The position numbers and the translations under genes were made by a program. Positions 12,904 through 32,481 of a stretch of 33,155 nt of DNA are shown piece by piece. The stretch spans positions 1 through 33,155 of the forward strand of contig LJZR01000040.1 of the NCBI GenBank assembly GCA_001314865.1. The letters are read 5' to 3'. How positions within the stretch are numbered: the first letter of the stretch is position 1; every line of letters begins with the position of its first letter. Below the pieces are notes generated by a model. That model made no database searches. It saw only the letters and a program-made list of their open reading frames with translations, and was not told where the DNA came from. The DNA is from Phormidesmis priestleyi Ana (lineage in GTDB: Bacteria > Cyanobacteriota > Cyanobacteriia > Phormidesmidales > Phormidesmidaceae).

Positions 12904-13312
12904 TCAACGGAGGCGCAGGTAGCAAAGGCACCGCTGCCGTATATATCAATAGCAAAAGCGAACTCCAAAAAGGATCGTAAAATGGCAGTTCAGCGAACGG
13001 CCCTCCAATGGCAAACACCCAAACAAAAAATGAAACGCAAGATAGGATAATTTGTTGCCATGCTGTTGCTTGTCCTGGCTCGCTTGTGAGCTTGCGTGTC
13101 CATAGCGCTGACAAAACCAATCCGATGACAAATAGCAGCCATAAAGCACCGATTCGGGTTTCTCCCACCTGGCTTTGAACCAGTCCATTCCCCGCCAGCC
13201 AAAAACTCACAACATCGGCTGGGATATATTTCAGCAGCCGTTCAGAATAGCCATCAACGGTTTCTGCTGATTTGCTCGATTGGTATTCAGACCATACAAT
13301 CCGACGCCCCAT
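12893..13312 (-). CDS. Three-helix membrane protein (139 aa)
   Basis: A short N-terminal cytoplasmic part with KYIPADVVSFWLAGNGLV is followed by three hydrophobic helices at about residues 54-71, 87-104 and 115-132. Position between the protease and the VMAP protein, with gaps of 17 and 46 bases, puts it in the same operon. In conflict systems of this kind membrane proteins may serve as effectors or anchors; whether this one permeabilises the membrane cannot be told from sequence. The C-terminal end lies in a 12-bp tandem repeat and may vary in length. Family not named. Confidence 0.65.
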   Translation of the reverse strand: MGRRIVWSEYQSSKSAETVDGYSERLLKYIPADVVSFWLAGNGLVQSQVGETRIGALWLLFVIGLVLSALWTRKLTSEPGQATAWQQIILSCVSFFVWVFAIGGPFAELPFYDPFWSSLLLLIYTAAVPLLPAPPLTQQ

Positions 13313-14483: not shown

Positions 14484-16658
14484 CTAAGAGCGTTTAATGT
14501 TGTTGATATGTTGTTGATCCAATCTGTTGGATGGATGGGTGTTATTCAAAAAGGATAACGCTGCTGGCACATCGAGTAGATAGTTTTTGACCATCTCTAG
14601 CGAAAACAGGTCGGGTAGTGCTTGCTGGAATTTGCTGAGCCTATACTCTGGTAGCTCAGAGAGCACAAATGACTCGGTGGTCGGACTATCCCAAAAGCGC
14701 TGAGTACGTATTTCTTTGAGTGAAAGATTGATCGTATTGGGACCCACGCTATCGCCCTCAATTTTGAGGCGAAAGTTGTCGGCGACAATTTTCCAATCGT
14801 GGCCATATTGCAGGCCGTATTTTAGGGTGTGGTTAATTTGCCCGCCTGCAAATGTCCACCAAATGGCTCGGTCTGCTTCGTACTGAATGCATTGCCCTTG
14901 CGCTTTTTCTTGAGCTTTCTTGAGTAGATTGCCTAAGTCATCTCTAGCAGCATCCAAACGCACTTGCGTTTGTGGATCAATGTAGGGGATGGCGGCATCT
15001 GCTTTTAGCACGGCGGCGATCTGTTGGCATATTTCGTAGCCGAGTAGCTGCGGCACAAATCCGCCCCAGTTTGGCTTTTTGCCTCTGGGGGCTGGCTCTA
15101 CTCGGATGGTGCGATCGCTGTGATTGACATGCTTCACCACCCAAGCGCGACCGCCCAACAAAAAAGAGCTAATCTCTTCTACGAGCTTATCGACAAAGGC
15201 TTGCTCTAATGAACCGACCACATAGCCTGCTTTAGTTGTAACCTTATACAGCACAGGACTACTAAATACGGCGTATAGCTCCATAAAGTTTTTGCGGCCA
15301 AAGACTTTTTCGGCTTTGTCACCCATGGAGAGCAAGCCTCCCGACTCATACAAAAAGCCTTCGCGCAGCATGTGAGCGATGAGGGTGTCAAATTCTGGGG
15401 CTGTGATGTTTGAAAAGTCAGTGATGACGGTGAGCTGCTGCCAACATCGCTCGGCGCTAATTGCTCCAAACTGAAGGGTGAGCGCGAGTAGCTGATGCAC
15501 GAGTACGGGCCAAGCGCGGGTATTCAATTTTATTGACTCTACCCAGCCAGTGCGGACTAACTCAACAATGGCGATCGCCTGCAAAGCCGGTTCTATATCT
15601 TCACAAAAAAAGGTAGTATTTGCCCGTTGCTGAGCTCTTCGGCCAGTGCGGCCTAACCGCTGCAAAAAAGAAGAGGCTGTCGAGGGCGCATTGGCCTGAA
15701 ACACCAAATCGAGATCGCCGACATCAATGCCTAGCTCTAAAGTAGAGGTACAGACGATACTCGCATTTTCGCCTTGATAAAACCGAGCTTCTGCCGCGTT
15801 GCGTTCTTCTAAAGAGACAGAGCTATGATGCACAAACACGTCAGTTCCTCGGTTTCGCAGGCGCTCGGCAATATCTTCGGCCAAGGAGCGACTTTCGCAA
15901 AAGAACAAACTTTTTTGCCCGGCGGCTTTTTGGCTGGCTTCTTGGGCGATCGCACCCAATGTCTCTCTCAAATGAACCTTTAAATCTTTTGGCGAAGGCT
16001 TTTTCGGCGGATCAACCACACAGCCTTCTCTTTTGGAAGTTCCTTGCATCCAATGAAGGATCGCTTCTGGATTGCCGACGGTGGCACTCAGTCCCACGCG
16101 CTGGATGTCGTTGGGGGTATAGCGAGCAATGCGCTCTAAAACAGAGATTAGGTGGGTGCCGCGATCGCTGCCTGCTAGGGCATGAATTTCATCAATCACC
16201 ACCCCTCGCAGATCGCCAAATAGCTTGGCATGAGGCACCTTAGATGAGAGCAACATGACTTCTAAAGATTCGGGCGTCGTCATGAGTAACGTTGCAGGCT
16301 CTTTCATAAAAGCTTTCTTGTCAGACGCTTTGACATCGCCATGCCATAAAAAGCGTCTGAGCCCGACCATGTCGGTATACAGGCCCAACCGTTCTGCCTG
16401 ATTGTTGAGCAGCGCTTTAATGGGGGCGATGTAGAGTAGTCCGACCCCCGCAGGCTCATTGTCCATGAGCTGAGCGAGCATCGGAAACATGGAAGCTTCC
16501 GTTTTCCCCCCGGCTGTGGGCGCAAGGATAACGGCATTTTTGCCATCTAGCAGGGCATGGCTAGAGAGTTCTTGAACCGGACGCAAGGATGTCCAGCCCA
16601 ATCGAGAGACGATGGCTTCTTGCAAGCGAACAGGAAAACGAGAAAAGGCTGAGGTCAT
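14484..16658 (-). CDS. brxHI: BREX DEAD/DEAH-box helicase BrxHI
   Basis: Superfamily 2 helicase of the Lhr-like kind. Motif I APTAGGKTE (46-54), motif II DEIH (156-159), motif III SAT (191-193), and motif VI QRLGRTGR near residue 335 are all present; the C-terminal half is the extended region seen in Lhr-like proteins. It starts 3 bases after the stop of brxD, so the two are translationally close. In BREX type 6 a BrxHI is the last gene of the operon, as here. It should unwind or translocate on DNA during phage exclusion; its exact step is not known. Confidence 0.85.
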   Translation of the reverse strand: MTSAFSRFPVRLQEAIVSRLGWTSLRPVQELSSHALLDGKNAVILAPTAGGKTEASMFPMLAQLMDNEPAGVGLLYIAPIKALLNNQAERLGLYTDMVGLRRFLWHGDVKASDKKAFMKEPATLLMTTPESLEVMLLSSKVPHAKLFGDLRGVVIDEIHALAGSDRGTHLISVLERIARYTPNDIQRVGLSATVGNPEAILHWMQGTSKREGCVVDPPKKPSPKDLKVHLRETLGAIAQEASQKAAGQKSLFFCESRSLAEDIAERLRNRGTDVFVHHSSVSLEERNAAEARFYQGENASIVCTSTLELGIDVGDLDLVFQANAPSTASSFLQRLGRTGRRAQQRANTTFFCEDIEPALQAIAIVELVRTGWVESIKLNTRAWPVLVHQLLALTLQFGAISAERCWQQLTVITDFSNITAPEFDTLIAHMLREGFLYESGGLLSMGDKAEKVFGRKNFMELYAVFSSPVLYKVTTKAGYVVGSLEQAFVDKLVEEISSFLLGGRAWVVKHVNHSDRTIRVEPAPRGKKPNWGGFVPQLLGYEICQQIAAVLKADAAIPYIDPQTQVRLDAARDDLGNLLKKAQEKAQGQCIQYEADRAIWWTFAGGQINHTLKYGLQYGHDWKIVADNFRLKIEGDSVGPNTINLSLKEIRTQRFWDSPTTESFVLSELPEYRLSKFQQALPDLFSLEMVKNYLLDVPAALSFLNNTHPSNRLDQQHINNIKRS

Positions 16659-16661
16659 GAA

Positions 16662-17981
16662 TTAAAACTCAACCAGGGCATAGTTTTTTTCGTCTTGCGG
16701 CTCTGGATCAAACACAGGAAGCCCGGAGCGAATGCGCGTTTCGTCTTCGGTTAAATCAGTAGGCTCAAAGCCTTCTACTGTCATCGGGTCATAGTCCGCG
16801 TTTTGATCGGTTAAGTCCAACACATTGATAAACGCTCGCAGGAACTGACGCGGCACAACCCCAACATCTCCTTTAAAGCCAGCGGTTACTTTATTGACCA
16901 GTTTTTCAATGAAATCGGTTGTAACTTTATCGGCGAGTCTGGCAGGGTTTACGGTGGGATATATCTCTCGCAGTTTTAGGGCGACATCTCTGAGTCGTTG
17001 AGCATTAAAGGGTTTGAGTTCTAGCTGGGGCTGCCGGGGATTCACAAACCCGCCTTTGCTCTCAAACCTGACGCGATCATGCAAAGGGGGAAGCCCAGCA
17101 ACGCCGCGCTTGGTATCAAAGAATTCGGGTGTGCCGGTAAAGATCCACAGCAGTCCTTGGTAGCGATCGGCAGCGTCGCAAATTTGGCGGATGCCATTGA
17201 GTGATTTGCCGCGTACGTCGGTACGCATTCGCAAAATGGTTTCGGCTTCGTCAATCACAATCACCAGTCCTTTGTACCCAGCCGCTTTGACAATTTCTAG
17301 AATGCCTTGTAGATAATCGAGCGCTTCGCGGCTACCGATATCTCCTTTAATGCCCGCTGCTTTTTTGGCGCTGGCGGCGACATTTTCACTGCCCGAGAGC
17401 CAGGAAATAAGGGCGCTGGCCTCGGCGATTTTGCCTGCTTGCTTGAGCGTAAAAATAGTGCGCAAGACGCGAGCCATGTCTTCGGGTGCTTTGCCGCTCG
17501 TCATAGAGGCCAGATCTTCTTCTAGTCGGTTTCGGACTTTGTCGTCGAAGTCATCTGCGTCTTCGTCGGCACCTGTGCTGATTAAGCTGTCTTCTACTTT
17601 GGCAATCCAGCGGTCGAGGATGTCGCTAAGGGCACCTCTGGAGCAGGTTTTGGTGCCTAGCTCTTGCACCACTTTGCGGTACACATCGTCAAATTTGTAA
17701 AAGTGCAGGTCATTATCAGAAACCACCACAAAACTGGTGGCAAAATCTTTTGCCTGAGCGTCGAGCACCGCCAGACGAGACATGAAAGTTTTACCGCAAC
17801 CGTAACCGCCTCTTAAAAACTTAAAGACACCTTCTTGGCTGGCGGCTAGGGTGAGCTGCCGGTCTAGTTCGGTGCGCTGGGTGTCGATGCCTACCGCAAA
17901 GGTTTCGAGGGAGCGATCGGGGACGACGCCTGAGCGCAGCCGCTCAAAAATATGCTCAATATCGCGTTCGCTGATGGCCAT
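16662..17981 (-). CDS. brxD: BREX ATP-binding protein BrxD
   Basis: P-loop ATPase of 439 residues with Walker A GGYGCGKT (58-65) and Walker B GLVIVIDEAETIL (D244, E245), plus WIFTGTPEFFDT, a sensor-like motif, and PRQFLRAFINVLD near the end. These features and the position between pglZ and brxHI match BrxD of BREX types 2 and 6. It starts 15 bases after pglZ and is followed after 3 bases by brxHI. The ATPase is thought to work with BrxHI and PglZ; no nuclease domain is visible. Confidence 0.85.
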   Translation of the reverse strand: MAISERDIEHIFERLRSGVVPDRSLETFAVGIDTQRTELDRQLTLAASQEGVFKFLRGGYGCGKTFMSRLAVLDAQAKDFATSFVVVSDNDLHFYKFDDVYRKVVQELGTKTCSRGALSDILDRWIAKVEDSLISTGADEDADDFDDKVRNRLEEDLASMTSGKAPEDMARVLRTIFTLKQAGKIAEASALISWLSGSENVAASAKKAAGIKGDIGSREALDYLQGILEIVKAAGYKGLVIVIDEAETILRMRTDVRGKSLNGIRQICDAADRYQGLLWIFTGTPEFFDTKRGVAGLPPLHDRVRFESKGGFVNPRQPQLELKPFNAQRLRDVALKLREIYPTVNPARLADKVTTDFIEKLVNKVTAGFKGDVGVVPRQFLRAFINVLDLTDQNADYDPMTVEGFEPTDLTEDETRIRSGLPVFDPEPQDEKNYALVEF

Positions 17982-17996
17982 TTCTTTACCTGAGTT

Positions 17997-20900
17997 TTAG
18001 GAACTTTGATTGCCTTTAACGTAGCGTTTGCCGGTGGCGGTGGTTTCTACACTGACGGAGAACGGTACTTTTTGCCGATGCGTTTCAAAGTGCAGGGCAA
18101 ACTGTCTGACTTTGCGGGGGGTGCCTAACAGCCGGACGAGTTCGGTTTCGGTGATGGCATTGTACTGGGCTAAATGCAAAAACACATCGCGGATGCGGTC
18201 GTCTTCAAAGCTACTTTGCCAGTCATTCGTTGGCTCTCCTGAATTCGAGGTGCGACTTGATGTGCGACTTGATGACTGAGTAGTCGTGGCGGCTTCTGTT
18301 TGGCCAGCTGTTTGGCCAGCTGTTTGGCCAGACCTTCGTTTAGAGCCTGCGACTTCAAAATAGGTGTCGATCACCGCAGGCTGCACGTCTTCAGCGCCGT
18401 CGGAGTGGTATACCTCTAGCTTAATGCGCTCGTCTTTGGGGCCTTTGAGCTTAAAGAGGATTTCTACCCAGTCTTGATCGATGGCAAGTTGTACCTGTTG
18501 ATTTTTGAGCTGCGCGCCTGTTGCCTCGGCAATGTTGACGTCGATATCGGGACGGTTGGGTACGCGCAGCGACAGGTTAAGGGTGCTTGCGCCGGTAAAG
18601 GTCAGCACGCCTTGGGCGTTGGCCGCGGGTTTGACCTTTACCTGTACACGGTCGAATCCAGCGATCGCACTCCTTGCTTCTGCCTCAATGACATAGGGCA
18701 CCCAGTTAGCACTGCTCTGATAGCGGTGCGACACGGTGAGTACCGGAATAACGCGCTCTTGCAGGCTATTGCCGCCATGGACAAACGTGGCACCGGGATT
18801 GCCAGTGGCAAAAATTGCGGTGTTTTTAGGAAAAACGACATACTTGGCTGAGTCGCTGCTATGCGGCAAGTAGCTGAGTGAACTGAGCGAAACGGTGGAT
18901 AAATCCTGCTCTCTGCGGAGTTCATCAATCAGCACATGACGGCGTTGGGGGTCGGTTTTTTTGCCCCAGTCGCGCTGTTCAATGGTCACGCGGTCTTGCA
19001 GCAAAAAACCGTGGTCGGCAGTGAATACAAATTCGTTAAAGCCGAGTGTTCTGAGGTGGTTCCAGGCAGATTTTAGCTGCTGTAGCCAGCGCTCGAAGGT
19101 GACGATGCCCACGTTGGCTTCACCGGCATCGTCAATTTCTTTGCTGTGGACGACGAGCAAGTCGATTTTGCTGAGACTGCTTTTGAGGCTTTTGGTCGAT
19201 TTTTCGCAGACATCTGCCAGGGTGAGGGCTTTGGCGCGGCGATGAATGCCGTCAATACTGCGATCGCACATTGCTCTGAGCCTATCAGCAGGCCGACTCA
19301 CCGTATATTCTCCTGACTTAAATCCCTTGAATTCGCCTTTGGCAAGTGTCAGCCGCCCGCCCTTATGGACAGGCGAAAGTGCGTTCATTCCCACTGAGGT
19401 GAGTGTGGGCAGTTCGGCATAGCGGGCCTTGAGTATTGCCGTTGTGCCAGCAGCTGTGCCAGTGCCAGTGCCTTCTAGCTCTAGCAGTAGTTCGGTGGCC
19501 ATTTCGTAGCGGAAGGCATCAACCAGAAAATAGGCGACTTTGGCATCGCTGTTGCTGGGGCCGCCTGCGGGGCTGGCCTGCGTGAGCGGATGCACGACCT
19601 GTTCGTACAGGGTGCGTTGCTGAAGGGCGGGTTCGGGCAAAAAGCCTTCGGCTTCGCAAATGTTGGAGAAAGCAACTGCCCAGTCATCGGCCCAGGTTCG
19701 GTAGGTTTGGCGTAGGCGGTCGGCCTGGGTTTGCAGTTCGGTGAAGTGGGGCAGCGTGCTGTCGAGCAGTTTGGAGCGCTGCTGCTCTAGGTGGCGGTGG
19801 GCTAAATCGACCTGATAGCCGCTTTGGGTATAGGCATCTAGCGCGGCTTGCAGGGTTTGGCCGGGGGCGAGGGGCTGGCCAATGCTGACGATGGTGCTGC
19901 CCAGGTGCGCCATAGACTGAATGAGCAGCCATTCGAGGCGGCGTTGGGGGTCGCGCTGTAGCCAAAAAGATTGGGTATCGAGGCGCACTTTGGCCCACTG
20001 TAAGGCGCTGAGCCAGTCGTCGGTGGCGAGTGCTTGCAGGGCTCCTTTTTCGAGGACGGTGGTTTCTTCGAGTCGGAAGGTGTCGATTTTGCCGAGGTCT
20101 TCGGGGCGGATGTCTTCAAATTCTGCGCTGAGGCGAGCTTCGACCAGGGTGGCGGTGTCGGCGTAGATGTTGGGGTGGCGATCGCGCAAATGATTAATCA
20201 GGCGATCGCACCGTTCCCGCAAGGGCTTGGAGAGCGCTTTTAACCGTCTTAGCTCCGGCATTTTGGCCTCACGGGTGAGGTCGTGAACATACTCTACGCC
20301 CATGAGCCAAGCGATAAAGGTAATGGTCAAATCACTAAAGTTGTAGTCTTCTTTTTGTAAGTCGGTGATTTGGAGATAAAAGTCAATAAAAGTGGCGTCT
20401 AAGCCGGTGGCGCGATTGAGATGATCGACCAGGAGCGCTAGCGTATCAGCGCTGCTGAATTTGGTTTGGAAGGCTTCTTTGCCTGAGATCAGGCTGTCTA
20501 AAATCCAAGTGAGGTCAAGATTGTCGAGGTAGTGACTCAGATCGTCTTGGGGTTGGCTAAGGGCGGTTTGGAGCCATTGTTCGGCATGGGCGAGGTCAGG
20601 GACGCCGTGGGAGAGGTAGCCTTCGATATCGTCGGGGCTAACTTTGCCGGTGGCGGATTCGCGCACTAGGGTGTCGAGGGCTTTGCGGTAGCGAGTACCG
20701 GCTCGGTATAGCTCTAATATGGGCGTTTTGCGAATGGTGTCTTCGATATGGCCGGGCATGTGAATCAGCAGCAGGTCAGGCGTTTCGTTGTTACCGTGGG
20801 CTTCTAGGGCGAGCATCATTTCGAGATAGCTGCCGCGAAAGGAAACGACAGGGGCAAAGAAGTCGCCTTGGGCATGGCGCAAGGCGAGGCGATCAACAAA

Positions 20901-21023
20901 GGCGGTGTAGTGGTTGTCTTTGTCGAGCCAGATGACGAGCTTTTGATTGCGCAGCTCGCGGCTAACGTCGGCTTCTAGAGTGGTGGTGATGGGGGTCGTG
21001 GTGATGGGGGCAGAGGTGGGCAT
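17997..21023 (-). CDS. pglZ: BREX protein PglZ (1008 aa)
   Basis: PglZ is the hallmark BREX protein with an alkaline-phosphatase-like core. The metal-site motifs are VAYFLVDAFRYEMATELL (DAFRYE 502-507) and FVFTADHGFLL (DHG 670-672). The long N-terminal helical half is as expected for the family, and the C-terminus carries a repeat-rich linker followed by a small domain. PglZ members have been shown to be phosphodiesterases or nucleases in some systems. It is separated from pglX by a PIN toxin-antitoxin pair. The start at 21023 is the first ATG (MPTSAPITTT). Confidence 0.85.
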   Translation of the reverse strand: MPTSAPITTTPITTTLEADVSRELRNQKLVIWLDKDNHYTAFVDRLALRHAQGDFFAPVVSFRGSYLEMMLALEAHGNNETPDLLLIHMPGHIEDTIRKTPILELYRAGTRYRKALDTLVRESATGKVSPDDIEGYLSHGVPDLAHAEQWLQTALSQPQDDLSHYLDNLDLTWILDSLISGKEAFQTKFSSADTLALLVDHLNRATGLDATFIDFYLQITDLQKEDYNFSDLTITFIAWLMGVEYVHDLTREAKMPELRRLKALSKPLRERCDRLINHLRDRHPNIYADTATLVEARLSAEFEDIRPEDLGKIDTFRLEETTVLEKGALQALATDDWLSALQWAKVRLDTQSFWLQRDPQRRLEWLLIQSMAHLGSTIVSIGQPLAPGQTLQAALDAYTQSGYQVDLAHRHLEQQRSKLLDSTLPHFTELQTQADRLRQTYRTWADDWAVAFSNICEAEGFLPEPALQQRTLYEQVVHPLTQASPAGGPSNSDAKVAYFLVDAFRYEMATELLLELEGTGTGTAAGTTAILKARYAELPTLTSVGMNALSPVHKGGRLTLAKGEFKGFKSGEYTVSRPADRLRAMCDRSIDGIHRRAKALTLADVCEKSTKSLKSSLSKIDLLVVHSKEIDDAGEANVGIVTFERWLQQLKSAWNHLRTLGFNEFVFTADHGFLLQDRVTIEQRDWGKKTDPQRRHVLIDELRREQDLSTVSLSSLSYLPHSSDSAKYVVFPKNTAIFATGNPGATFVHGGNSLQERVIPVLTVSHRYQSSANWVPYVIEAEARSAIAGFDRVQVKVKPAANAQGVLTFTGASTLNLSLRVPNRPDIDVNIAEATGAQLKNQQVQLAIDQDWVEILFKLKGPKDERIKLEVYHSDGAEDVQPAVIDTYFEVAGSKRRSGQTAGQTAGQTEAATTTQSSSRTSSRTSNSGEPTNDWQSSFEDDRIRDVFLHLAQYNAITETELVRLLGTPRKVRQFALHFETHRQKVPFSVSVETTATGKRYVKGNQSS
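18250..18322. repeat. In-frame 12-bp repeats in the pglZ linker
   Basis: GTGCGACTTGAT is repeated at 18250-18261 and 18262-18273 (coding SRTS twice on the minus strand). TTTGGCCAGCTG is repeated at 18299-18310 and 18311-18322 and partly again, coding GQTA repeats. Both units are multiples of three, so copy changes would alter linker length without a frameshift. Confidence 0.7.
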
Positions 21024-21069: not shown

Positions 21070-21489
21070 CTAGTTGGAAAGCAGAAGGTTTTCAAAGGAC
21101 TGGGTATCTCTCCAACGGTAAACGCTAAAGTCTCGACGATCTGTTGTGAGGATGCGACCGTGCCCGAGTTCTTCTGCCAGTAGAACCAAAGAAGCATCTG
21201 CAAAATCCATAGGCAGGTCTTCGTACTTTTTCATCAGTACTATCATGCGGTCTAAATGCGAGTTTTGGAGATGAAAGACTTCAGCGGCGTTGCGGACAAT
21301 ACTTTGTAAAAATGCTCGTGCAGCCGTTTGGCCTACTGAACGAGCCAGCAGGTAGCAGGTTTCTGTGAGGACTGGGTAAGTCGTAATAAATCCCTCTGAG
21401 AGTTCTATGAAAGCCTGCTGTGCGATCGCATGATCTTCGTCACGCTCACTCAAGAGGGCTATAAACGCGCCCGTATCGGTGATAATCAT
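21070..21489 (-). CDS. PIN-domain toxin (VapC-like, 139 aa)
   Basis: PIN-domain ribonuclease. The acidic active-site residues are visible: D5 in MIITDTGAF, E43 in LTETCYLL, D98 in MDFADASLVLL and D117 in ILTTDRRDFS. Such toxins cleave RNA, often tRNA or rRNA. The start overlaps the antitoxin stop as ATGA. It sits inside the BREX operon between pglX and pglZ on the same strand; such an addiction pair may stabilise the locus. Length is normal for the family. Confidence 0.85.
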   Translation of the reverse strand: MIITDTGAFIALLSERDEDHAIAQQAFIELSEGFITTYPVLTETCYLLARSVGQTAARAFLQSIVRNAAEVFHLQNSHLDRMIVLMKKYEDLPMDFADASLVLLAEELGHGRILTTDRRDFSVYRWRDTQSFENLLLSN

Positions 21490-21871: not shown

Positions 21872-24800
21872 CTACATGCCTTGGAAGGCGAGCTGTTCTT
21901 TATCGGCTTTTTTGTCCTTTCGTTCGCGGCGTTTTGCCTCTTTTTCTTTTAGCGTTTTGATTATATCGGGATGCTTTGCTTCAAACTGTTGGCGGAGTGT
22001 GTCGGAGTCGGCTTCATCGATGGTGAAGTCGGGGCCGATTTCGTCTTGCAGGCGCAGTTCCCATTCGTAGGCTTTGGCGGGGTGGTATTGCCAAAAGCAG
22101 CCGTGGGCGACGGCGAGGGAGGGGTCTTGCTGGCATTTGGTATCGACGCGGTTGGGGAAGTAGCGGGCGGCGAGGTGTGACCAGTCGTAGTCTTTTTTGC
22201 CTTTGGCGGTACAGAGTTCGTGCCACCAGGTTTTAGGTTTTTTCCATTGGGGTTCTAGCAGCGGCCACAGGGCGGCGCTGTTGATCATGACGCCGTCGTC
22301 TAGGTTCATTTGGTAGCTGACTTTATCAATTTCGGGGGTGGGGTCTTTAGGATCGGCGGGGGGTGGGATGAGGTCGGCGCATTGGCGAATGAGGGCGATG
22401 AAGGCGGTGAGTTCGGTGTGGAGGGCTTGAATGTGGGTGTAGCGGGTTTCGGCTTTGGCTTGGGTGCTGGGGTCGCCTTGGTTTTTGCTGTCGGCGAGGT
22501 CGGCGAGTTCGCCTTCTAGGGCGGTGAGGTCTTTGGCGGTGTAGTCGGCGAGGAGGTCGGTGAGGGTGTGGGGTGTCCAGCGGTGGATGGAGATGTGGGC
22601 GACGAAGTTTTTGTTGGCGGAGCTGAGGGGGAAGTAGATGGGGCGTTGTTCGTACATGCCGAGGTGGACGTCTTTAAAGAAGTGGAGGCGGAGCCATTCG
22701 TGGAGGGATTTTTTGGTGATGGCGCTGCTGTGGGTGGCCCAGGCTTCGTGGAGGGGGGCGCAGGCGGGGTGGGTGAGGCTGTCAGGCCCGTTTTGTTGAT
22801 CGGCAGAATAGGCAGAAAGATAGAAAATTCCGTGAGGTAGGGGCGTTATGGCTGTGTGCGCTTCGGATTCTGGGGATTGGGATTGTAGCGGTGATGCCAA
22901 GGGAAAACGGCCTAGCGCTAACCCAACTGCATAAGAGATCCAATCTGTTGCGGGTGGCTGTTCGTAGGTGGGTTGCCAAGCAGGCAGCGGTTCCCCGGCA
23001 GGGCGATCTACGGCTCGTTGTGCCCAGGCTTGGGCGTAAGACCAGCAGGTAGCCCCCGGACTAATGAATTCTACCGAAGGTTCTCGGGCGGCTTCGTGGG
23101 TGGTGAAAGCGGCTTCGAGCTGGGCGAAGATTTCGGTGGCGGATTCGATGGGGAAGAGGGGGAGGCGGTTTACGTCGCCAAGCTCAAAGCCAACCCCAGG
23201 ATTCAACGAAGATAGGATAAATCTCGAAATTTGGTTATTCATTACGCACAAAGGATCTTCCATTTCCTGGGGAAAGATAGAAGATCCTTTCCCGCCAAAT
23301 GCACCTGGATATCGATGAACTCTTGCCGAAAAATTAGCACCAATCTGGGAGAACGCGATCCCTCGTCGAAAAAAGTACTCTGTGCCTTGGGGATAGGCTC
23401 CATGTTTTAGTTCCAGTAGAAGCTTTATCTCTAAACCTGCATCTTCCCAGCAAAGAACCTCTGTTAGCGCGTCGATCCACTGCTGTCCTTTGGCACCACC
23501 AACGTATGGAAGCCACCTGTATTGATTCTTGCTAGAGACGTTGAGAGATCGAATGTGAAATTCTGCCTCAACGACCTCGTGAGGCAGACGAAGAAATCTA
23601 GTGTTATCGGAAGTCCATGTACCTTTTCGACTTTGAAAAAGATCCCCTAATTTGGCTGTTTCGTCATAGCGGTTGAGGAATGCCTCATCCCACCAGTAGA
23701 TGAGGGGCTTTTCCTTGATGACATCGAAGCGAGTCGTCTCAAACTCAAATCGCCCTACCTGTGCCAACACCGCCGCCCGCTTACGAGCTATGTTGCCTTC
23801 CGACTTGATATCATTTGGCGCTGGCCGAAATGCAAGGCTCGTCAATTCACTTGGTTTTGCTCGGCGAAAAATAACCATTGCCACCGATAAAACAACTTGA
23901 GCAGCAGAAACTTCTTCAAACGCGCCAGTTTCGAGATCTTCTAATAAGCGTAAATCATATTCTTCAATCAGCTTCTCTCGAATCGCAGAATACTGACTAA
24001 TAAACATCCAATTCCGCATCGTTAGCAACGCCGACAATCCGCCCGGCCTCACCAACTGCAACCCCCGATCCAAAAACGCTGCATAGAGATCTGCCTTTGC
24101 TTCCGGATAGCGCTTCTTCAAATAGTCAGCATCCACCATCTTACTTGCCCCCTGATACGGCGGATTCCCCACCACCAAATCATAAGCGCCCTCCCGCACC
24201 ATCCGAATAAACCTGACCCCCGCCGCCAACTGCTCCCCCTTTAGCCGCAAACCCAAATCATCACTGCGCGTTCGGCTCGCCAAAAACGTTTCGAGCTGTT
24301 CGAGCAAAAGTGCCCTCATCCCCAATCCCTTCCTCGACCCCAACAACAAAGGCGCGTTAGAAAGATTGTCTTCTATGAGGCTAGTTTGCATAGGCTTTTC
24401 GTAGGCTGCAATCGCCTCATCCACCACCCCATCCACCTGCAACAAACTCCCCCAAGCATCCGCCCCCGCCAACGCCGCCACAATCTCATCCGTCAACGCC
24501 CCCGGAATTCCCGTCGTCGCTTCCACCGCCTCTCGCAACGCCTGCCGCGCCTCATCATCCACCGGCAACATCGCCAAATTTAAATTAGACGCCACCAAAT
24601 TCAACGCCCTCGGCCTTGCCCCCTCACAAACCGCCTTCCCCTTCAAATACAGCCCCGCCGCCGCAATCTGCACCGCCCTCGGATCTAAATCCAACCCATA
24701 CAGATTGTTCTCCAAAATCCACTCAACAATCTCTTTATCACTCCAACTTTCGCCGCCCGCTTGCCTCCGGTGCCGCGCCTCCTCTTGATAAAACGCCCGC

Positions 24801-25897
24801 AACAAATCAAACGCAATCACCAAAAAATGCCCCGACCCACAAGCCGGATCAAAAATCTTCAAATCTTTAATACTGCTCGGAATCCCCTCACCCGTCAGCG
24901 CTGGCTGCTGCACCCAATACTTCCACCGCGCCTCCGCTTCAGTCTCAATCGGCATCAGCGCATCTAGCGCCACCTCACCCGATTCTCTTTTCTCTCGCCA
25001 ATCCTTTCTTCTGTTTTCCAACCGCGCCAGCGTTCCATCCGTCACCGCCTCCGGCTGCCAACCATTTTGCGCACATATCGCCAGCCACTGCTGCCCCAAG
25101 CTATTTTGCAGCAGCCACTCCACCATGTAGCGCTCCGTAAACATCTGCGTTTTACTCGCAATCTCATGCGGCTCCACCTTGCCGCCACCATTGAGCTTTG
25201 CATCTAGCGCTTCTCGCTCTGGATCATTCCAATACTGATACACCCATCCCAAGGTTGTATCATCCAGCCAGGCACTCTCTAGCGCCGGTGCATTTAGCCC
25301 ATCCACCACCTTTCGCAGCGTACTCGCAGGCACCTCAAACAATTGCGTTAAACTAACAGAACCAAACAACCCCGGCAGCTCCAAGGCCAGCTCATCACAC
25401 AGCAGCTTTAGCAGTAGCCCATAGCCCTCGGTCTCGCCCTTACACAAGTCCGGCGCAAACTCTCGAAACTCCTTATAGCCCGCACTATTCCATCCACCCG
25501 TCACCACCGCAGGCTTCACCATTCCCCGCGCCTCAAGCTGCTTAATCACCACCAGCCGGTTCAGCACCGTCGCCCCCGCCAGCTTAATCGCGTCGGTTAA
25601 GTGCCGCTCCCAGCTCTCTTGTTCAAATTTCTGTTTGTTCTTGTCCTTGGGCTGTTGTGTTGCCACATCCGCCCGCACCTGCTCCTTGAGCCAGTCCTCC
25701 AGCCGCTTTCGCTTTTCAAACTGTTCCTCAGCCAAGCCCGCATTATCAGCAGGCCTAATCGACAGCCGATACGTCCCCTCTGCCGCCTCCCGCATTCCCT
25801 TCAGCAGCAGCCCCCCGTTTGGATCGCTGGCCGTGCCACGAAAGTCGCGGATTGTGCGGGCGAGTTTAGCTTTAGCTTCTGGCGTGAGATGAGTCAT
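21872..25897 (-). CDS. pglX: BREX adenine-specific DNA methyltransferase PglX (1341 aa)
   Basis: Large N6-adenine methyltransferase. The SAM-binding motif DPACGSGHF is at residues 350-358 and the catalytic NPPY in DLVVGNPPYQG at 577-581. The N-terminal 340 residues are the helical region typical of PglX; the part after about 650 should hold the target-recognition domain. PglX marks host DNA at a non-palindromic site, which separates self from phage. A long C-terminal lysine/glutamate-rich tail (EKEAKRRERKDKKADKEQ) ends it. Base composition falls in the presumed recognition domain near 23200-23900. It is preceded by the DUF433 gene after 67 bases. Confidence 0.9.
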   Translation of the reverse strand: MTHLTPEAKAKLARTIRDFRGTASDPNGGLLLKGMREAAEGTYRLSIRPADNAGLAEEQFEKRKRLEDWLKEQVRADVATQQPKDKNKQKFEQESWERHLTDAIKLAGATVLNRLVVIKQLEARGMVKPAVVTGGWNSAGYKEFREFAPDLCKGETEGYGLLLKLLCDELALELPGLFGSVSLTQLFEVPASTLRKVVDGLNAPALESAWLDDTTLGWVYQYWNDPEREALDAKLNGGGKVEPHEIASKTQMFTERYMVEWLLQNSLGQQWLAICAQNGWQPEAVTDGTLARLENRRKDWREKRESGEVALDALMPIETEAEARWKYWVQQPALTGEGIPSSIKDLKIFDPACGSGHFLVIAFDLLRAFYQEEARHRRQAGGESWSDKEIVEWILENNLYGLDLDPRAVQIAAAGLYLKGKAVCEGARPRALNLVASNLNLAMLPVDDEARQALREAVEATTGIPGALTDEIVAALAGADAWGSLLQVDGVVDEAIAAYEKPMQTSLIEDNLSNAPLLLGSRKGLGMRALLLEQLETFLASRTRSDDLGLRLKGEQLAAGVRFIRMVREGAYDLVVGNPPYQGASKMVDADYLKKRYPEAKADLYAAFLDRGLQLVRPGGLSALLTMRNWMFISQYSAIREKLIEEYDLRLLEDLETGAFEEVSAAQVVLSVAMVIFRRAKPSELTSLAFRPAPNDIKSEGNIARKRAAVLAQVGRFEFETTRFDVIKEKPLIYWWDEAFLNRYDETAKLGDLFQSRKGTWTSDNTRFLRLPHEVVEAEFHIRSLNVSSKNQYRWLPYVGGAKGQQWIDALTEVLCWEDAGLEIKLLLELKHGAYPQGTEYFFRRGIAFSQIGANFSARVHRYPGAFGGKGSSIFPQEMEDPLCVMNNQISRFILSSLNPGVGFELGDVNRLPLFPIESATEIFAQLEAAFTTHEAAREPSVEFISPGATCWSYAQAWAQRAVDRPAGEPLPAWQPTYEQPPATDWISYAVGLALGRFPLASPLQSQSPESEAHTAITPLPHGIFYLSAYSADQQNGPDSLTHPACAPLHEAWATHSSAITKKSLHEWLRLHFFKDVHLGMYEQRPIYFPLSSANKNFVAHISIHRWTPHTLTDLLADYTAKDLTALEGELADLADSKNQGDPSTQAKAETRYTHIQALHTELTAFIALIRQCADLIPPPADPKDPTPEIDKVSYQMNLDDGVMINSAALWPLLEPQWKKPKTWWHELCTAKGKKDYDWSHLAARYFPNRVDTKCQQDPSLAVAHGCFWQYHPAKAYEWELRLQDEIGPDFTIDEADSDTLRQQFEAKHPDIIKTLKEKEAKRRERKDKKADKEQLAFQGM

Positions 25898-25964: not shown

Positions 25965-26417
25965 TTATTTAATGCCTCTTGCTTTATGCTGTTGGGCAAT
26001 ACGAGAAACCGGAGCTTGCCGCTGAAGCCTATCGACTTTTTCGAGACGCCTTTTCATATCGTCATCTAGGGCTTCTTGATGATCCCAGTAGTAGGCTAGA
26101 GCTGAGTAGATTTTGCCAAGGGCGATATGTGGAAACTGGAAGTGGAGTTCTTCAGGACTCCAGCCATAGGCCAAGTGCGAGGTAATCAGCTCAACTACTT
26201 TCATCGTGCTGCCCTCAATGTAGGGCACTTGCTCATCGTTGAGCTGAATGTGTTTGTAGTCTGTGGCGATATAGTTCATAAAAATTAAGTCCGATTCTAG
26301 CCGTACAACTGCCTCAGCAAAGCTTTTTCGCCCAGATCCTAAACGCCTCACCCTCAAGTTTTTCAAGTCATATGCTGAGCGAAGTTCATCTTCCGACTCG
26401 GTACTATTATTCTTCAT
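25965..26417 (-). CDS. DUF433 antitoxin-like protein with extra N-terminus (150 aa)
   Basis: Residues 47-150 match the DUF433 family of cyanobacterial antitoxins: MNYIATDYKHIQLNDEQVP, then VELITSHLAYGWSPEELHF and IYSALAYYWDH. That family normally starts at this internal Met (position 26279). The first 46 residues (ELRSAYDLKNLRVRRLGSGR, then VVRLESD) look like the N-terminus of another small antitoxin family, so this may be a fusion. The ATG at 26417 has GAGAAG upstream and is preferred over 26279, which has no ribosome-binding site. The usual DUF5615 toxin partner is absent; pglX follows directly. Confidence 0.7.
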   Translation of the reverse strand: MKNNSTESEDELRSAYDLKNLRVRRLGSGRKSFAEAVVRLESDLIFMNYIATDYKHIQLNDEQVPYIEGSTMKVVELITSHLAYGWSPEELHFQFPHIALGKIYSALAYYWDHQEALDDDMKRRLEKVDRLQRQAPVSRIAQQHKARGIK

Positions 26418-26534: not shown

Positions 26535-29500
26535 CTAAATCAATCGAATCCGAATATCCGCGCTGCCCTCTAGCTTATCGACTAACTCGCTCCGCAGCCG
26601 CCCCAACAGCGCATCGACCTCCGCCACGCTGCTCACCTCCCGCTTACTCAGCAGCGAAGTCACGCTAAACTCAATCGTTTGCGTGCCGGTTTCTTGGGCG
26701 ATCGCATCATCCAAATACCGATTCGCCAGCCTCACCGCCTCATACAGCCGCTGCTGCGCCGGTTCTTTTAGCTCAATTAAAGGCGGCTGCAACGCCGCTT
26801 GAGTCGTGTTAGTAAGCGCTTCTCGCAGCGGACTCGATACCCGTGCGGCCTTCTCCTCCGTTAGCGTCGAATAACCTAAGCGGTACTGCAACTGCCCATA
26901 GACCTCTTCAAAGGTCTGCTCCTGTTGCTCAATAAAGCTGAGCCGCACCTGCTGATAATGGGCTTCAATCGCCTCAATCGCAGGCAGCAGCGCCGCCACC
27001 TCCTCCCAAGGTTTCGCTTGATGCACCTCAAAGTGCAACTTTAGCGCCGCCACCTCATGCTCTATGCCCCTAAGCCGACCCACCTGCCTCAGCTGCGCCA
27101 CCTGATGCAGCTGCACAGTCATCGCCCGCTGCACCGCACTCACCTTTTCATCTAACAGCTCAGAGAGCGATCGCCCCAGCTCATAAATGCCATCGTCTAA
27201 TACATCTAAATTGCGTTTGGTATTCAGCAGCGTTCGCTCTACTTGGCGCGATCGCGTACAGTCTTCCAATGCCTTTTGCAACTTCTGCAAAGACTCCGGC
27301 AGCGCCACCCGCCCTGGCAGTTGAGCATAGCGCTGCTCTAGCAGCCGCAGCCGCCCTGCCTGCTCTCGAAAGCGCTCATGCACTCGGTCGGCCACGATGT
27401 CCTTATCGCGATCTAGCGGTTCGCCCAGCCGCCGATCAAAAAACTGACAGATCGCATTCAAATCGCGCCGCGTTACCCCCTTGTCACTGGGCGGCAGCAC
27501 ATCTGCCCGCTTTAAATCCTGCGCCTTGGTAAACACATCTCTCGCGCCCGGATCGCGCACTGAATTGATTTCGGCCCCCGTTCCAGGCCGAATTTGCACC
27601 TTGCTCGCCCGCAATAGCCCTGCCAAGCAAGCCCGCACCACATCCGCCGGATAGCCATAGGGCGGCCCGCCAAAGTGAGTGAGCAGCGCACTGCCTGAGA
27701 TGCCCCGCTCCTCTAGCACATACTGCTCAATGCGAGTGGGGACTTCGCCCTCGCAGGTCGGCACATACTTGCCCTCATCTAAGGCCAAAATCCCCAGCCC
27801 CTCAGCCATGAACTTGTAAGATATGCCCGATAGATTTTGCTCTAATAGCTGAAGCAGCTCTGTAGTTGTCACGGCTACATTTACATACCGGTTGTAAATA
27901 TCAGGCAGTAGCCCCTCTGCCAATCGGGTCAGCAGGGAGGCAAACCCACTGCCGTACTGCTGCCGGTCAATTTGTCGTCCCCGAAAATAAACCTCGCCTG
28001 CCAAAACAAACGCCTCAGCCACCGCGTCTTTTACCCGGTTTTCAAGGGTTTCACTCTGGCTCTGTTCGTCACTGAGCAGTCGCCGCTTACTCTCCGATAA
28101 GGTCGATCGGCGAGAATCATAGCGGTTGAGCATATAGCGCGATCGCACCAATCGCTTAATCTCACCGTCTAGCCCATCTTGCTTACTCACCACCCAAAAA
28201 ATTCGACTGCTGTTGGCGCTCTCCTTAATCCATTCATCTGCTTGATTGTCGGCCTTGGGCACATAGCGAAAATCTATCGTTACCACTGCCAGTTCGCTCG
28301 GCACCTGCAAGCGCTCATCTTGCCGTTGCCTACCGTCGCTGTAGTAAGCCGCCCAGCGAAACCCATTGCCCTGGTACTTTGGATTCTCTGCTGTTCCCAA
28401 CAGATCTTTGAGCTTTTGCGCCACAATCTCACTGGTGGCATCAGGCGTTACGGTATAGCGATCGCGCTCCCTAGCCCACTCTTGCCCCGCTGAACTCTGA
28501 ATTTTATAGCCCGTTTTCTCCGAGTAGGACAGTAAGCTCAGCTCCCGCAGTTTCTCTAGCGCCTGCGTCACCTCTGCCGTTTGATTGCCTAAGCCGATGC
28601 GGCTATACAAACACTGCGCCACCAGCATAGGTGTCGTCGGCACCTGCTCTTGAATCAGCTCTAGCAGCGCTACTGCTTTGGCTGCTCGCACCGCCAGTGC
28701 ATCGGCCACGACTTCCTCATGGGCAAACAGCCGCATTAGCGTCGTTTGGACATCGTTATCGAGTGCCGATTGCTGTACGTCAAAAATATGGTCGAGCGTA
28801 ATGAGCGCGCCGAGTTCTTGTTCGCCCAGCTGCTGCTCACGGAACAGCTCGCCGAGCAGCTGCAACAGGCCGCGAATGGCATGATCATCGCCCTTGGCTT
28901 TAGTAGAGCGCGATCGCAAATTTGAGGTAATTTGCATGAGCAAATCCACATATCCGGGCAGCAGCGGATACACCTCTAAAAAGCTTTCTTTCGCAATCGA
29001 CTCGCACTCATAGCCATGCAGCTTCAAATCGCTACGATGCTGATCGAACAAATCTGCCAGTGCCCCCACCTGGTCTGCTCGCTTTTTGAGCAGCCGTTTA
29101 TGCACCACATCGCGAATATTGGTCGGCGCTAAATGCACCCGTAGCTTAGGCGGAAAGCGATCCTTAAGCTTATTGATATTGCTCTCATCGTCACTGTCTT
29201 CTAGCTTTTGCTGGCCGGTTGCCAGCAGCCACACTTGCCCTTTTAGCCGCTGCCCTAACGCCTGCACAAACGACTGCAAAGCCAGCATTCGGTTCGTATT
29301 TTGAAAAATGTACTGGCTGACTTCATCGACCACGACAAACAGTGTTTTGCCCGGTGCCCGGTGTTGAAGCATTTGTGCGATCGCTTTTGTGGTTTCCTCC
29401 GCCGAGCTACCGACCCCGGTATTGGCCCCTGCTCTACTGTCGTACCAGCTCAGCGGATCGGTATATAGCGCTGGATTCATCTCATGCAGCACTTGCGAAA

Positions 29501-30164
29501 ATTCCTCATCTGCAACCGGAGAGGTTTTTACCCTATCCCAGGGCTCGCCCAGTACCTGCTGTGCCGTCTCCAAAAATCTTGCCCATTCGCCCTCTATCTC
29601 CAGTTTCAGCTCATGGTCTGCCACATAGTGAATATCGCCGCAGTAGCCCAGCCGCCTTTGTAGCTGCCGCTTTACGACCGAGTGAATCTGCTCGTCATCG
29701 CGAGCTGCCGCCCCAATATCAAACACCACCGCGATCGGATCGATCTGTGCTTTTAGCGCTTGCCAATTCTCTCTTAACTCCGCCGCCTTCGGTGAATCAT
29801 CCCGGCGTAGCAATGCTTCTGCCAACGGTTCGCCGTTTGGTAGCGCCAATCCATCTAACGCCAAACCCAGTAGCTTTGCAAAGCTCGACTTACCCGAGCC
29901 GTAAAACCCTGAAATCCAGGATGCGGGCAGCGCTGGACTTCCTTTTTGCAATTCTTCTATCAGCCCTGCTAGCAGGCGCACAAACTGCTCATGAATGCCT
30001 GATGCTTTAATGTAATTCCAGCGCGGATCGTCCGTTGGGTAGCCGCCTGTAATAATGTACTCACCAACTTCTTCTGCCACCTTTGCCGGATTTTGCTCGT
30101 GGAAATACACCACAGGCGGAATATCGCGCGTTACGTCATTGGCAAAGAGATCTTTGAGTAGCAT
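26535..30164 (-). CDS. brxC: BREX P-loop protein BrxC/PglY (1209 aa)
   Basis: Very large ATPase. Walker A is GFYGSGKSS (residues about 86-94) and Walker B TLFVVVDEVSQYI (D280, E281), followed by VWLLATGQQKLED and a long helical C-terminal half. Length and order (after brxB, before pglX) match BrxC. I choose the ATG at 30164 (MLLKDLFANDVTRDI), which matches the usual BrxC start; an in-frame TTG at 30185 is the alternative. The 120 bases upstream of the TTG form a tandem array of 17-bp units, so expression relative to brxA/brxB may be influenced by it. Confidence 0.9.
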   Translation of the reverse strand: MLLKDLFANDVTRDIPPVVYFHEQNPAKVAEEVGEYIITGGYPTDDPRWNYIKASGIHEQFVRLLAGLIEELQKGSPALPASWISGFYGSGKSSFAKLLGLALDGLALPNGEPLAEALLRRDDSPKAAELRENWQALKAQIDPIAVVFDIGAAARDDEQIHSVVKRQLQRRLGYCGDIHYVADHELKLEIEGEWARFLETAQQVLGEPWDRVKTSPVADEEFSQVLHEMNPALYTDPLSWYDSRAGANTGVGSSAEETTKAIAQMLQHRAPGKTLFVVVDEVSQYIFQNTNRMLALQSFVQALGQRLKGQVWLLATGQQKLEDSDDESNINKLKDRFPPKLRVHLAPTNIRDVVHKRLLKKRADQVGALADLFDQHRSDLKLHGYECESIAKESFLEVYPLLPGYVDLLMQITSNLRSRSTKAKGDDHAIRGLLQLLGELFREQQLGEQELGALITLDHIFDVQQSALDNDVQTTLMRLFAHEEVVADALAVRAAKAVALLELIQEQVPTTPMLVAQCLYSRIGLGNQTAEVTQALEKLRELSLLSYSEKTGYKIQSSAGQEWARERDRYTVTPDATSEIVAQKLKDLLGTAENPKYQGNGFRWAAYYSDGRQRQDERLQVPSELAVVTIDFRYVPKADNQADEWIKESANSSRIFWVVSKQDGLDGEIKRLVRSRYMLNRYDSRRSTLSESKRRLLSDEQSQSETLENRVKDAVAEAFVLAGEVYFRGRQIDRQQYGSGFASLLTRLAEGLLPDIYNRYVNVAVTTTELLQLLEQNLSGISYKFMAEGLGILALDEGKYVPTCEGEVPTRIEQYVLEERGISGSALLTHFGGPPYGYPADVVRACLAGLLRASKVQIRPGTGAEINSVRDPGARDVFTKAQDLKRADVLPPSDKGVTRRDLNAICQFFDRRLGEPLDRDKDIVADRVHERFREQAGRLRLLEQRYAQLPGRVALPESLQKLQKALEDCTRSRQVERTLLNTKRNLDVLDDGIYELGRSLSELLDEKVSAVQRAMTVQLHQVAQLRQVGRLRGIEHEVAALKLHFEVHQAKPWEEVAALLPAIEAIEAHYQQVRLSFIEQQEQTFEEVYGQLQYRLGYSTLTEEKAARVSSPLREALTNTTQAALQPPLIELKEPAQQRLYEAVRLANRYLDDAIAQETGTQTIEFSVTSLLSKREVSSVAEVDALLGRLRSELVDKLEGSADIRIRLI

Positions 30165-30183
30165 GTTGTTCGATAGCTTAGAC

Positions 30184-30319
30184 AAATAAGTCAGTTTAGG
30201 AAATAAGTCAGTGTGGAAAATAAGTCGAAAATATAGTCTTATGAATAAACCAGTCTTATGAATAAACCAGTCTTATGAATAAACCAGTCTTATGAATAAA
30301 CCAGTCTTATGAATAAACC
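30184..30319. repeat. 17-bp tandem array between brxB and brxC
   Basis: Five identical 17-bp units AGTCTTATGAATAAACC lie at 30235-30319. They are preceded, still in 17-bp register, by three degenerate units that begin AAATAAGTC (30184, 30201, 30218). The array covers the brxB stop codon and reaches the brxC start region. There are no spacers, so it is not CRISPR. Confidence 0.85.
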
Positions 30320-30963
30320 CGAGGTCGATAGTCTCTATCTGTCGAAAGCTCTTTCATAAAAGAAAGCGCCTGCCGCTCCCTACGTTCCCCCGGATATAGC
30401 ACCACCACCGGCAGATTTCTGGTCTTTCCATCAATATGCTTTAACAGCGCTGAAGATCTAAAAAACGGATACAAAGCGCCGGTTCGACCTAGAAAAAATA
30501 GCGTTCGATTCGTCTCATTGGGATAGTCGTCGGCAAATTGACTAATTCGCTCAATGACATCGCGAGCAATTCCATCGGGACCCTCCACATAGCGAGTGAG
30601 CTTATTTTTCAAATGGGTAAGGGCTCGCTCCGGGTCTTTTTCATGGAGCCGGTGTTCCATTCGAATAATGCTCTCTAGTACCCGAGGATCTTCTGCCTTC
30701 AGCCGATCTAGCAGCAACTTCTGCAATGAAATGGACAGTACATTCCATCCCTTACCGGTTAGTTCATCGCTCAAATTACGAATCCGTTGGCGCAGGTCAA
30801 ACTCTTTTTCAGGATCGTAAGTCAAAATCGCAAATCGGTAGTTTCGCATGGTACTAATGCGAGGCCCCGCATCATCGAGCAAATCTTTCCTTAGCTCATT
30901 AATCGCCCGATCTAGCGAGGCTTGCTCAATCGTCTGCTGGATTTGCTGAGTTGGAGCGTTCAT
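30307..30963 (-). CDS. brxB: BREX protein BrxB (DUF1788, 218 aa)
   Basis: The middle and end carry the DUF1788 pattern: YRFAILTYDPEKEFDLRQRI, then FFLGRTGALYPFFRSSALLK and LPVVVLYPGE. The family is a small BREX core protein of unknown biochemical role. The start overlaps the brxA stop as ATGA, and its own stop codon lies in the first unit of the 17-bp repeat array. Length is normal. Confidence 0.85.
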   Translation of the reverse strand: MNAPTQQIQQTIEQASLDRAINELRKDLLDDAGPRISTMRNYRFAILTYDPEKEFDLRQRIRNLSDELTGKGWNVLSISLQKLLLDRLKAEDPRVLESIIRMEHRLHEKDPERALTHLKNKLTRYVEGPDGIARDVIERISQFADDYPNETNRTLFFLGRTGALYPFFRSSALLKHIDGKTRNLPVVVLYPGERRERQALSFMKELSTDRDYRPRVYS

Positions 30964-31889
30964 ACCTTCGTCTCTGGCTGTATTGCTGGCTGTATTTTGG
31001 TCGGTATCTCTGGCACGGGTATTCCTAACTCACTTTCTGCCCACCGTTCAATATCCGCATACTGCCAGTTAAATTCGGACAAATCTCCCATTCGGCTAAA
31101 TTTTAGCGCTGACAGCTGCCTCAGCCTGGGCTCTAGAAATCCTTCCCCCAAACCCACCGAAGCAAAATAAGGATTACTTAGCAGCGTTCCCTCAAACCGC
31201 AAATCCTTCAAAAAATACAGCCAATAAGTTAATGCCGCATCCGTAACCTTAGGATAAGTAAGCACACGCGTTCCAGCGGTCGTTTTGCAAAGCCCTGCGG
31301 CAGTTGCACAGGTAATCAGCGCTGTCGCCATCCTTAAAATGGTCGCCGTTGCCCATTCTGTCTGTAGGTTTTGGCGCACCCAGCGAGCGGCAATGTCTCG
31401 ATCAATGCTGACTGCGATCGCGCCTAGCTGCGATTCCCCCGGCATGCTTCGCGATCGTCGCTGCTCTAAAAAGTCTCCTGAGAATGCCCGGTACATTGGG
31501 TCGGCAAGCTGCAAATGCCAGTGGCAAATATTCTGGCGAGTCGTTGGATCGCTCGGTTGCCAACCGGTTAAGACCTTCAAAGAGGCTGGATAAGCATCGT
31601 ACCGATGGCTAAAGTCAGCGAGCAGTTGCCGCACCCGTTCCAAGCTTTTACTCCCAAACCATCGCGATTCAAACGCCCGCTCTGCCCGTTTGCCCTGCTT
31701 GTCTTGAAGGGAAAGATCGGCTGCTTGCTGTTCCCAGTAGGCCCTACTCTCGTCTAAGGCTAGGGACACGCGCAGCAGTCGAGTATGAAACTGCACGACC
31801 TCAGCGCCGTAGATAGGCTGAATTTTTGTGTCTTCTGGCGCTTTAGATTGCGGGCTACTGGCTTTTATTGTTTTGGCTTTAGATGACAT
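30960..31889 (-). CDS. brxA: BREX protein BrxA (DUF1819-like, 309 aa)
   Basis: The protein has the position and layout of BrxA: between brxE and brxB, helical, with a conserved C-terminal part (TYWLYFLKDLRFEGTLLSNP) like the end of DUF1819. About 309 residues is longer than the roughly 200 of type 1 BrxA; the extra length is at the N-terminus and the tail. BrxA of type 1 binds DNA. It overlaps brxE by 11 bases and brxB by 4. The assignment leans partly on gene order. Confidence 0.7.
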   Translation of the reverse strand: MSSKAKTIKASSPQSKAPEDTKIQPIYGAEVVQFHTRLLRVSLALDESRAYWEQQAADLSLQDKQGKRAERAFESRWFGSKSLERVRQLLADFSHRYDAYPASLKVLTGWQPSDPTTRQNICHWHLQLADPMYRAFSGDFLEQRRSRSMPGESQLGAIAVSIDRDIAARWVRQNLQTEWATATILRMATALITCATAAGLCKTTAGTRVLTYPKVTDAALTYWLYFLKDLRFEGTLLSNPYFASVGLGEGFLEPRLRQLSALKFSRMGDLSEFNWQYADIERWAESELGIPVPEIPTKIQPAIQPETKV

Positions 31890-32481
31890 TGGGCGCCTCC
31901 AAGCGATAAAACGGCATTGGATAGCGATCGCTCAAAGGCAGCAAAGCCGCTGCTAGGCTATGCGCCCTCAAGCCATAAGCAATCGACATTTCTCCTGTCA
32001 GCTCTCGACCATCCGGCACAATTTTATAGGCCGCTGCCTGTCCGGCAATCTTTAGCGTATTTTCTAAATCAGTTTGAACAAAGTCGCCTTCTAACCGCAA
32101 CGGTAGCGTTAGCCGCTCACTCGGGAGTTCTTCACTGCGCTTATGCACAGCTATCCGGTCGGCGAGTGCTTCGTCCACTGCAAAGCCCCAAAAGAAAAGC
32201 GTATTGACTAAATCTGGCTGAGAGAGCCGCTGTCGAATCTTTTGATCGTGCTCAATGGCGGCCTGCCGCACGGCCTCTAACGCTGCCCATTGACCCGTTT
32301 TAGGCAGCAGTCGCCGAAAAAAATCACCGCCGCCTAGCTCATCAGTCAAATCGGTTCGCCACCAGCCCAATCGCTGAAGCTCACCATTCCCTTCACCCGC
32401 CCAAGCCACTAAAAACTGCCAGGTCAAAATATCGTCCAAAACGGATTCCGACAGGGACTTAGCTTTCGTCAAGGGTTCCAT
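31879..32481 (-). CDS. brxE: BREX type 6 protein BrxE (200 aa)
   Basis: First gene of the operon. A 200-residue helical protein with SVLDDILTWQFLVAWAGEGN and ELGGGDFFRRLLPKTGQWAA, the pattern I associate with BrxE, a protein found only in BREX type 6. No catalytic motif is visible. Its stop is inside the start of brxA. The ATG at 32481 (MEPLTKAKSLSE) is the first in frame. The 197-base region upstream should hold the BREX promoter, but I cannot place -35/-10 boxes with confidence. Confidence 0.75.
   Translation of the reverse strand: MEPLTKAKSLSESVLDDILTWQFLVAWAGEGNGELQRLGWWRTDLTDELGGGDFFRRLLPKTGQWAALEAVRQAAIEHDQKIRQRLSQPDLVNTLFFWGFAVDEALADRIAVHKRSEELPSERLTLPLRLEGDFVQTDLENTLKIAGQAAAYKIVPDGRELTGEMSIAYGLRAHSLAAALLPLSDRYPMPFYRLEAPNVI

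Follow-up and report, generated by a model that had tools for sequence, protein, structure and literature searches.

Intergenic minisatellites, or VNTRs, are a known kind of bacterial repeat, and the MIRU repeats between senX3 and regX3 of mycobacteria are one example. The repeat between brxB and brxC of Phormidesmis priestleyi Ana is a real, recent and ordinary minisatellite of this kind. Its direct copies are arranged head to tail, its unit falls within the minisatellite range (about 10-100 bp) and the copies exceed what chance would give. Like other intergenic minisatellites or VNTRs, it places tandem direct repeats between operon neighbours and varies in copy number between relatives. However, it departs from VNTRs generally in that its 17-bp unit has a single place in the genome and its copy-number difference is known between species only.

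The surrounding operon also has a described counterpart. We take brxE, brxA, brxB, brxC, pglX, pglZ, brxD and brxHI together to be the BREX type 6 set. By this definition the locus is a type 6 system, with all eight genes present in order and each matched by a PADLOC profile. What sets it apart are the 17-bp arrays in the brxB-brxC spacer and the genes for a DUF433 protein and a PIN-domain protein within the operon.

Another point of comparison is the TAACTGA heptamer. These direct repeats occupy intergenic sites in cyanobacteria and Beggiatoaceae, where close strains differ mostly by whole units (PMC4679880). The brxB-brxC repeats are likewise intergenic, direct and cyanobacterial. However, the heptamer is a 7-bp unit with many places, whereas the unit here is 17 bp long and has one place. 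Among the publications found on BREX, tandem repeats and phase variation, none has a title or abstract opening that deals with a brxB-brxC repeat. Small arrays are common in the sampled genome, and the most likely explanation is that the brxB-brxC repeat is a chance mutational by-product and not a control switch.

Two adjacent arrays at the brxB-brxC junction

The window, meaning the whole stretch of DNA that was analysed, is a complete contig (C65; 33,155 bases) from a draft genome of 5.93 Mb and 136 contigs. The eight genes lie on the minus strand in the order brxE-brxA-brxB-brxC, pglX, pglZ-brxD-brxHI. brxE (31879..32481; PADLOC BrxE, E 7.4e-58) and brxA (30960..31889; BrxA, E 2.6e-86) have no Pfam match. 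brxB (30307..30963) matches both PF08747 (E 5.9e-24) and PADLOC BrxB (E 7.7e-83). The PADLOC match of brxC (26535..30164) is to BrxC-PglY, with 1562 bits across residues 1-1206 of 1209, and that of pglX (21872..25897) is to PglX, with 1764 bits. The remaining genes are pglZ (17997..21023; PglZ, E 1.2e-297), brxD (16662..17981; BrxD, E 6.1e-167) and brxHI (14484..16658; BrxHI, E 1.5e-279). A Pseudanabaena plasmid record labels its own gene 'BREX-6 system BrxE protein'.

The DUF433 and PIN-domain genes (25965-26417 and 21070-21489, by Pfam) flank pglX and are possibly parts of toxin-antitoxin pairs. Other tandem repeats on the contig have a 12-bp unit. Two perfect ones are inside pglZ (18250-18274 and 18296-18331), and one with 93% matches (12862-12903) spans the 3' end of an ORF at 12893-13312. 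Elsewhere in the genome, at L020 (G000:C92:1420-1854), lies another BrxB relative, distant at 28% identity. A short BrxC-like match lies downstream of it, and the locus is possibly a second BREX-like system.

The initial annotation described an eight-unit array that keeps strict 17-bp phase over 136 bases. Part of this stands, in that there are five exact copies and a 17-bp periodicity through the next 51 bases, but the last three copies form an array of their own. Eight times 17 is 136 arithmetically, yet with the phase held strictly from 30184 the degenerate units agree with the exact one at 5, 4 and 5 of 17 positions, which is chance level. The repeat is two adjacent 17-bp arrays in different registers. 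Array A (30235..30319) consists of five perfect copies of GGTTTATTCATAAGACT on the minus strand (TRF: 5.0 copies, 100%), and its unit gives five matches at no more than three mismatches where 0.03 are expected. Array B (30176..30226, minus strand) is built from a different 17-mer (GACTTATTT...) and runs from 30226 down to 30176 through three diverged 17-bp copies, GACTTATTTTCCACACT, GACTTATTTCCTAAACT and GACTTATTTGTCTAAGC. Its 23 of 34 lag-17 matches were equalled by none of 20,000 mononucleotide shuffles. The two arrays are separated by an 8-bp spacer, ATATTTTC (30227..30234, minus strand), and a similar T-rich stretch is present in the relative L022. A distant common origin of the arrays is possible, because array B matches unit A, at the best of 17 rotations, at 10, 10 and 9 of 17 positions, more than in nearly all shuffles (2 of 5,000 mononucleotide shuffles equal it).

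The repeat does overlap the brxB stop, as was first noted. The stop codon (TAA, 30307..30309, minus strand) lies within the first copy of array A. The coding strand of brxB ends ...CGG GTT TAT TCA TAA and the BrxB C-terminus reads ...YRPRVYS, with the same residues in the closest relative. Thus the first copy, carrying ...V-Y-S-stop, is the genuine end of brxB. Array A cannot extend BrxB, because each copy has one TAA on the sense strand and ATG, GTG and TTG are all absent from it. On the plus strand, antisense to brxB, each 17-bp step of array A holds ATG AAT AAA CCA GTC TTA TGA. This creates short MNKPVL frames that overlap by ATGA, probably by chance.

At its other end the repeat approaches brxC. 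Array B stops 11 nt short of the likely brxC start, the ATG at 30164-30162, and homologues likewise begin there. The TTG at 30185 is simply where the longest ORF starts. The stretch before the ATG, AAGCTATCGAACAAC (30165..30179, minus strand), is identical at 14 of 15 bases in the array-less relative, and its first four bases double as the end of the last array B copy.

The nearest relative and the origin of the arrays

A BrxB search of 143 relatives found matches in 13 at E <= 0.001, and a second draw of 386 phylum genomes found two at E <= 1e-20, with the own genome counted in both cases. One scan of genome contigs yielded three loci. The closest BrxB, 91-92% identical, is encoded on a 4.3-kb contig of the same-genus genome G004 (apparently the MAG Phormidesmis sp. 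RL_2_1). The gap from the brxB stop to the brxC ATG is 142 nt in the window and 40 nt in G004, the latter figure resting on imperfect sequence (a low-coverage metagenome assembly, with a coverage of 1.62 in its title, and an apparent brxC frameshift). The difference of 102 nt is 6 x 17: unit A has four more copies in the window than in G004, and unit B has two more. In a comparison between species only, copy number therefore differs among related genomes, with one copy of each unit at the G004 junction and 5 + 3 here. When the arrays are collapsed to single copies, the junction with its flanks is 166 bases long in both genomes. Ungapped identities are then 141, 140 or 144 of 166, according to the B copy retained.

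The exact copies had been read as a sign of recent expansion, and the comparison bears this out. A recent local expansion of the arrays is supported by the perfection of the five copies and by the single copy of each unit in the nearest relative found, whose gap is shorter by 6 x 17 nt. The short 40-nt gap is probably the older state, to judge from the tandem copies, although it is not seen in any outgroup whose spacer can be aligned.

Very probably, then, two neighbouring 17-bp segments were tandemly duplicated and expanded to five and three copies as an ordinary by-product. The first segment would have taken in the final codons of brxB together with its stop, and the second would have lain within the brxB-brxC spacer. 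Each would have been duplicated in tandem before growing further, so that the spacer went from about 40 to 142 nt while the BrxB C-terminus and the bases before the brxC ATG were kept. The cause was presumably the same tandem-duplication process as across the genome. The change would be tolerated, in that a stop codon duplicated into the spacer should harm neither protein, and the array would play little or no role in regulation. One thing that this account leaves unaccounted for is the coincidence of two arrays side by side, both with a 17-bp unit.

Could the copies instead be binding sites for a DNA- or RNA-binding protein? They might form an operator, an iteron-like array or the RNA target of a Csp- or S1-like protein. 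The perfection of the direct repeats would fit, and the TAACTGA heptamer repeats have been proposed to bind a post-transcriptional regulator (PMC4679880). However, a search of the 5.93-Mb draft genome at two or fewer mismatches places unit A nowhere else (the backward control gives one match), and it is therefore not a dispersed element. The array B unit has 16 matches at up to three mismatches, two of them within array B itself, and its backward control has 30. A dispersed, heptamer-like family was rejected on these counts. In addition, part of the first array A copy codes for the end of BrxB, and TRF (score >=30) found no tandem array at the G004 brxB-brxC junction. A binding-site array is thus very unlikely, and duplication as an ordinary by-product remains the preferred explanation.

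The brxB-brxC spacer as a candidate regulatory element

The initial annotation proposed that copy number could alter the distance or the RNA structure between the two genes and so tune BrxC. In the form considered here, additional copies would part the brxB stop from the brxC start, cut translational coupling and thereby adjust the amount of BrxC. The repeat is indeed inside an operon, and its spacer is 3.5 times that of the nearest relative found. Coupling could also matter, given that no clear Shine-Dalgarno is visible by eye ahead of the brxC ATG, either in the window (30165..30179) or in the relative. Against this stand several observations. Folding of the leader (30130-30330) gives -26 kcal/mol, whereas shuffles average -30.3 (z +1.2), and 177 of 200 shuffles are at least as stable. 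The suggestion of an RNA structure between the genes thus finds no backing, there being no excess over shuffles. A scan of both strands from 29900 to 30700, covering the array and its surroundings, for sigma-70-type promoters and intrinsic terminators returned no site, where chance alone would give 1.0 and 0.9.

Nor is the distance between the genes kept. Ten junctions whose BrxB is at least 52% identical, own included, were compared, and their brxB-brxC gaps are 142, 40, 69, 74, 105, 32, 13, 149, 37 and 263 nt. The scan for arrays covered these ten junctions, and not ten further loci with distant BrxB (about 22-35% identical) or a third plasmid match (Azospirillum). A conserved distance was accordingly dismissed. 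The spacer is freely variable in both length and content, which is evidence against a tuned distance. TRF arrays (score >=30) are present in three of the ten junctions, with unrelated units. Besides the window, there is an 11 bp x 3.7 array in the spacer of Oculatellaceae cyanobacterium Prado106 (L024:3302-3342) and a 57 bp x 3.1 array in that of Pseudanabaena galeata plasmid pPg_02 (L067:2763-2937). Arrays in two of nine other scanned junctions could hint at something about the brxB-brxC spacer, a point against the by-product account.

Arrays in such places are also commonplace in the own genome, where 114 of 257 sampled gaps of 60-400 bp between ORFs of at least 90 aa contain one (67/153 co-directional, 20/56 divergent and 27/48 convergent). 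Without a promoter, a terminator or excess folding, with gaps of 13-263 nt and with arrays in so many short gaps, the sequence leaves tuning of BrxC by array copy number unsupported, and a regulatory spacer seems unlikely. The longer spacer may still have a modest effect on brxC translation, though nothing in the sequence supports one.

Short tandem duplications in the genome and its relatives

The own-genome sample comprised 40 stretches (L026-L065) totalling 638,694 bases, a non-random selection made up of the beginnings of contigs and additional pieces of the large ones. It contains 384 non-overlapping TRF arrays, or 60.1 per 100 kb, compared with none in one first-order Markov copy. Periods of 7-20 bp account for 339 of them, and other 17-bp arrays are included, such as one of 6.0 copies at L048:2059-2160. 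Further examples are found at L034:2555-2669, L050:6381-6479 and L060:9576-9705. By a simple ORF split (at least 100 aa), 247 arrays are intergenic (1.9 per kb) and 137 are coding (0.27 per kb). Of 516 ORFs, 51 have an array across the stop and 10 have one across the start, counts that come from mechanical ORFs with imprecise, longest-ORF starts. Because arrays span stops more than starts and occupy so many short gaps, it is typical of this genome for an array to run from the last codons of a gene into the spacer and stop short of the following start. This genomic background is the decisive evidence on the brxB-brxC repeat.

An assembler can miscount a repeat or make one, and the genome is a draft in 136 contigs. 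However, array A is just 85 bp long, and coding arrays keep frame, with periods divisible by 3 in 126 of 137 as opposed to 90 of 247 outside coding sequence, which artefacts would not do. Arrays are also similarly abundant in the separately assembled sister G004. An assembly artefact is accordingly very unlikely, and the least probable of the explanations considered.

The abundance has a lineage component. The own genome has 232 perfect 11-18-bp arrays in 639 kb and G004 has 92 in 188 kb, but the five other genus members sampled (G001, G002, G003, G005 and G006) together have 22 in 485 kb. This is a rate ratio of 8.6, drawn from non-random samples that are small for G002 (40 kb), G005 (50 kb) and G006 (67 kb). 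G005 is intermediate, with six such arrays in its 50 kb. Richness in arrays is not unique to this lineage, because the class-level genome G085 is rich as well, with 57 perfect 7-40-bp arrays per 100 kb (59 in the own genome) and 26 perfect 11-18-bp arrays (36 in the own genome). In one syntenic stretch, the doubled unit of none of ten own TRF rows, some of them overlapping, is present in 17 kb of G004, with some mismatch allowed. Yet G004 has arrays of its own there, which suggests that arrays arise and disappear fast.

What produces the duplications? Profiles for MutL, MutS, RecJ, SbcD and XseA score above cut-off in all seven genus genomes, a statement about gene presence and not function, and the Ku profile matched none of the seven. 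The presence or absence of these repair genes was therefore rejected as the cause, since the same pattern in all seven does not separate the repeat-rich pair. G004 has a second RecJ-like match, below cut-off and in two pieces in different open frames, and the MutL of G005 is split over two open frames. Junctions were compared in perfect two-copy duplications of period 10-30, leaving aside any with an additional degenerate copy. In the own sample, 57 of 116 have 0 bases of junction homology (63.5 expected by chance) and 33 have 3-12 bases (about 7 expected). In G004 the corresponding counts are 7 of 35 (19.2 expected) and 18. Junction homology thus exceeds chance, and more strongly so in G004.

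Tentatively, and with confidence a little short of even, we suggest that the own genome and G004 have in common an unusually active process that makes 11-18-bp tandem duplications genome-wide, in cells that have no Ku gene but do have those for MutS, MutL, RecJ, SbcD and XseA. The brxB-brxC array would be one of its products, and arrays of this sort could provide material from which the tuning of genes, those of BREX among them, evolves. A more immediate lesson is one of caution, namely that the genome-wide frequency of repeats should be checked before a repeat in a defence operon is called a regulatory switch. The surplus of short tandem duplications is a better lead than the tuning of BrxC. 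If the 11-18-bp surplus in the two sister genomes is genome-wide, it would offer a natural system for how bacteria make short tandem duplications. It would also allow one to ask how selection sorts them, with frame kept in genes, stops tolerated and starts avoided.
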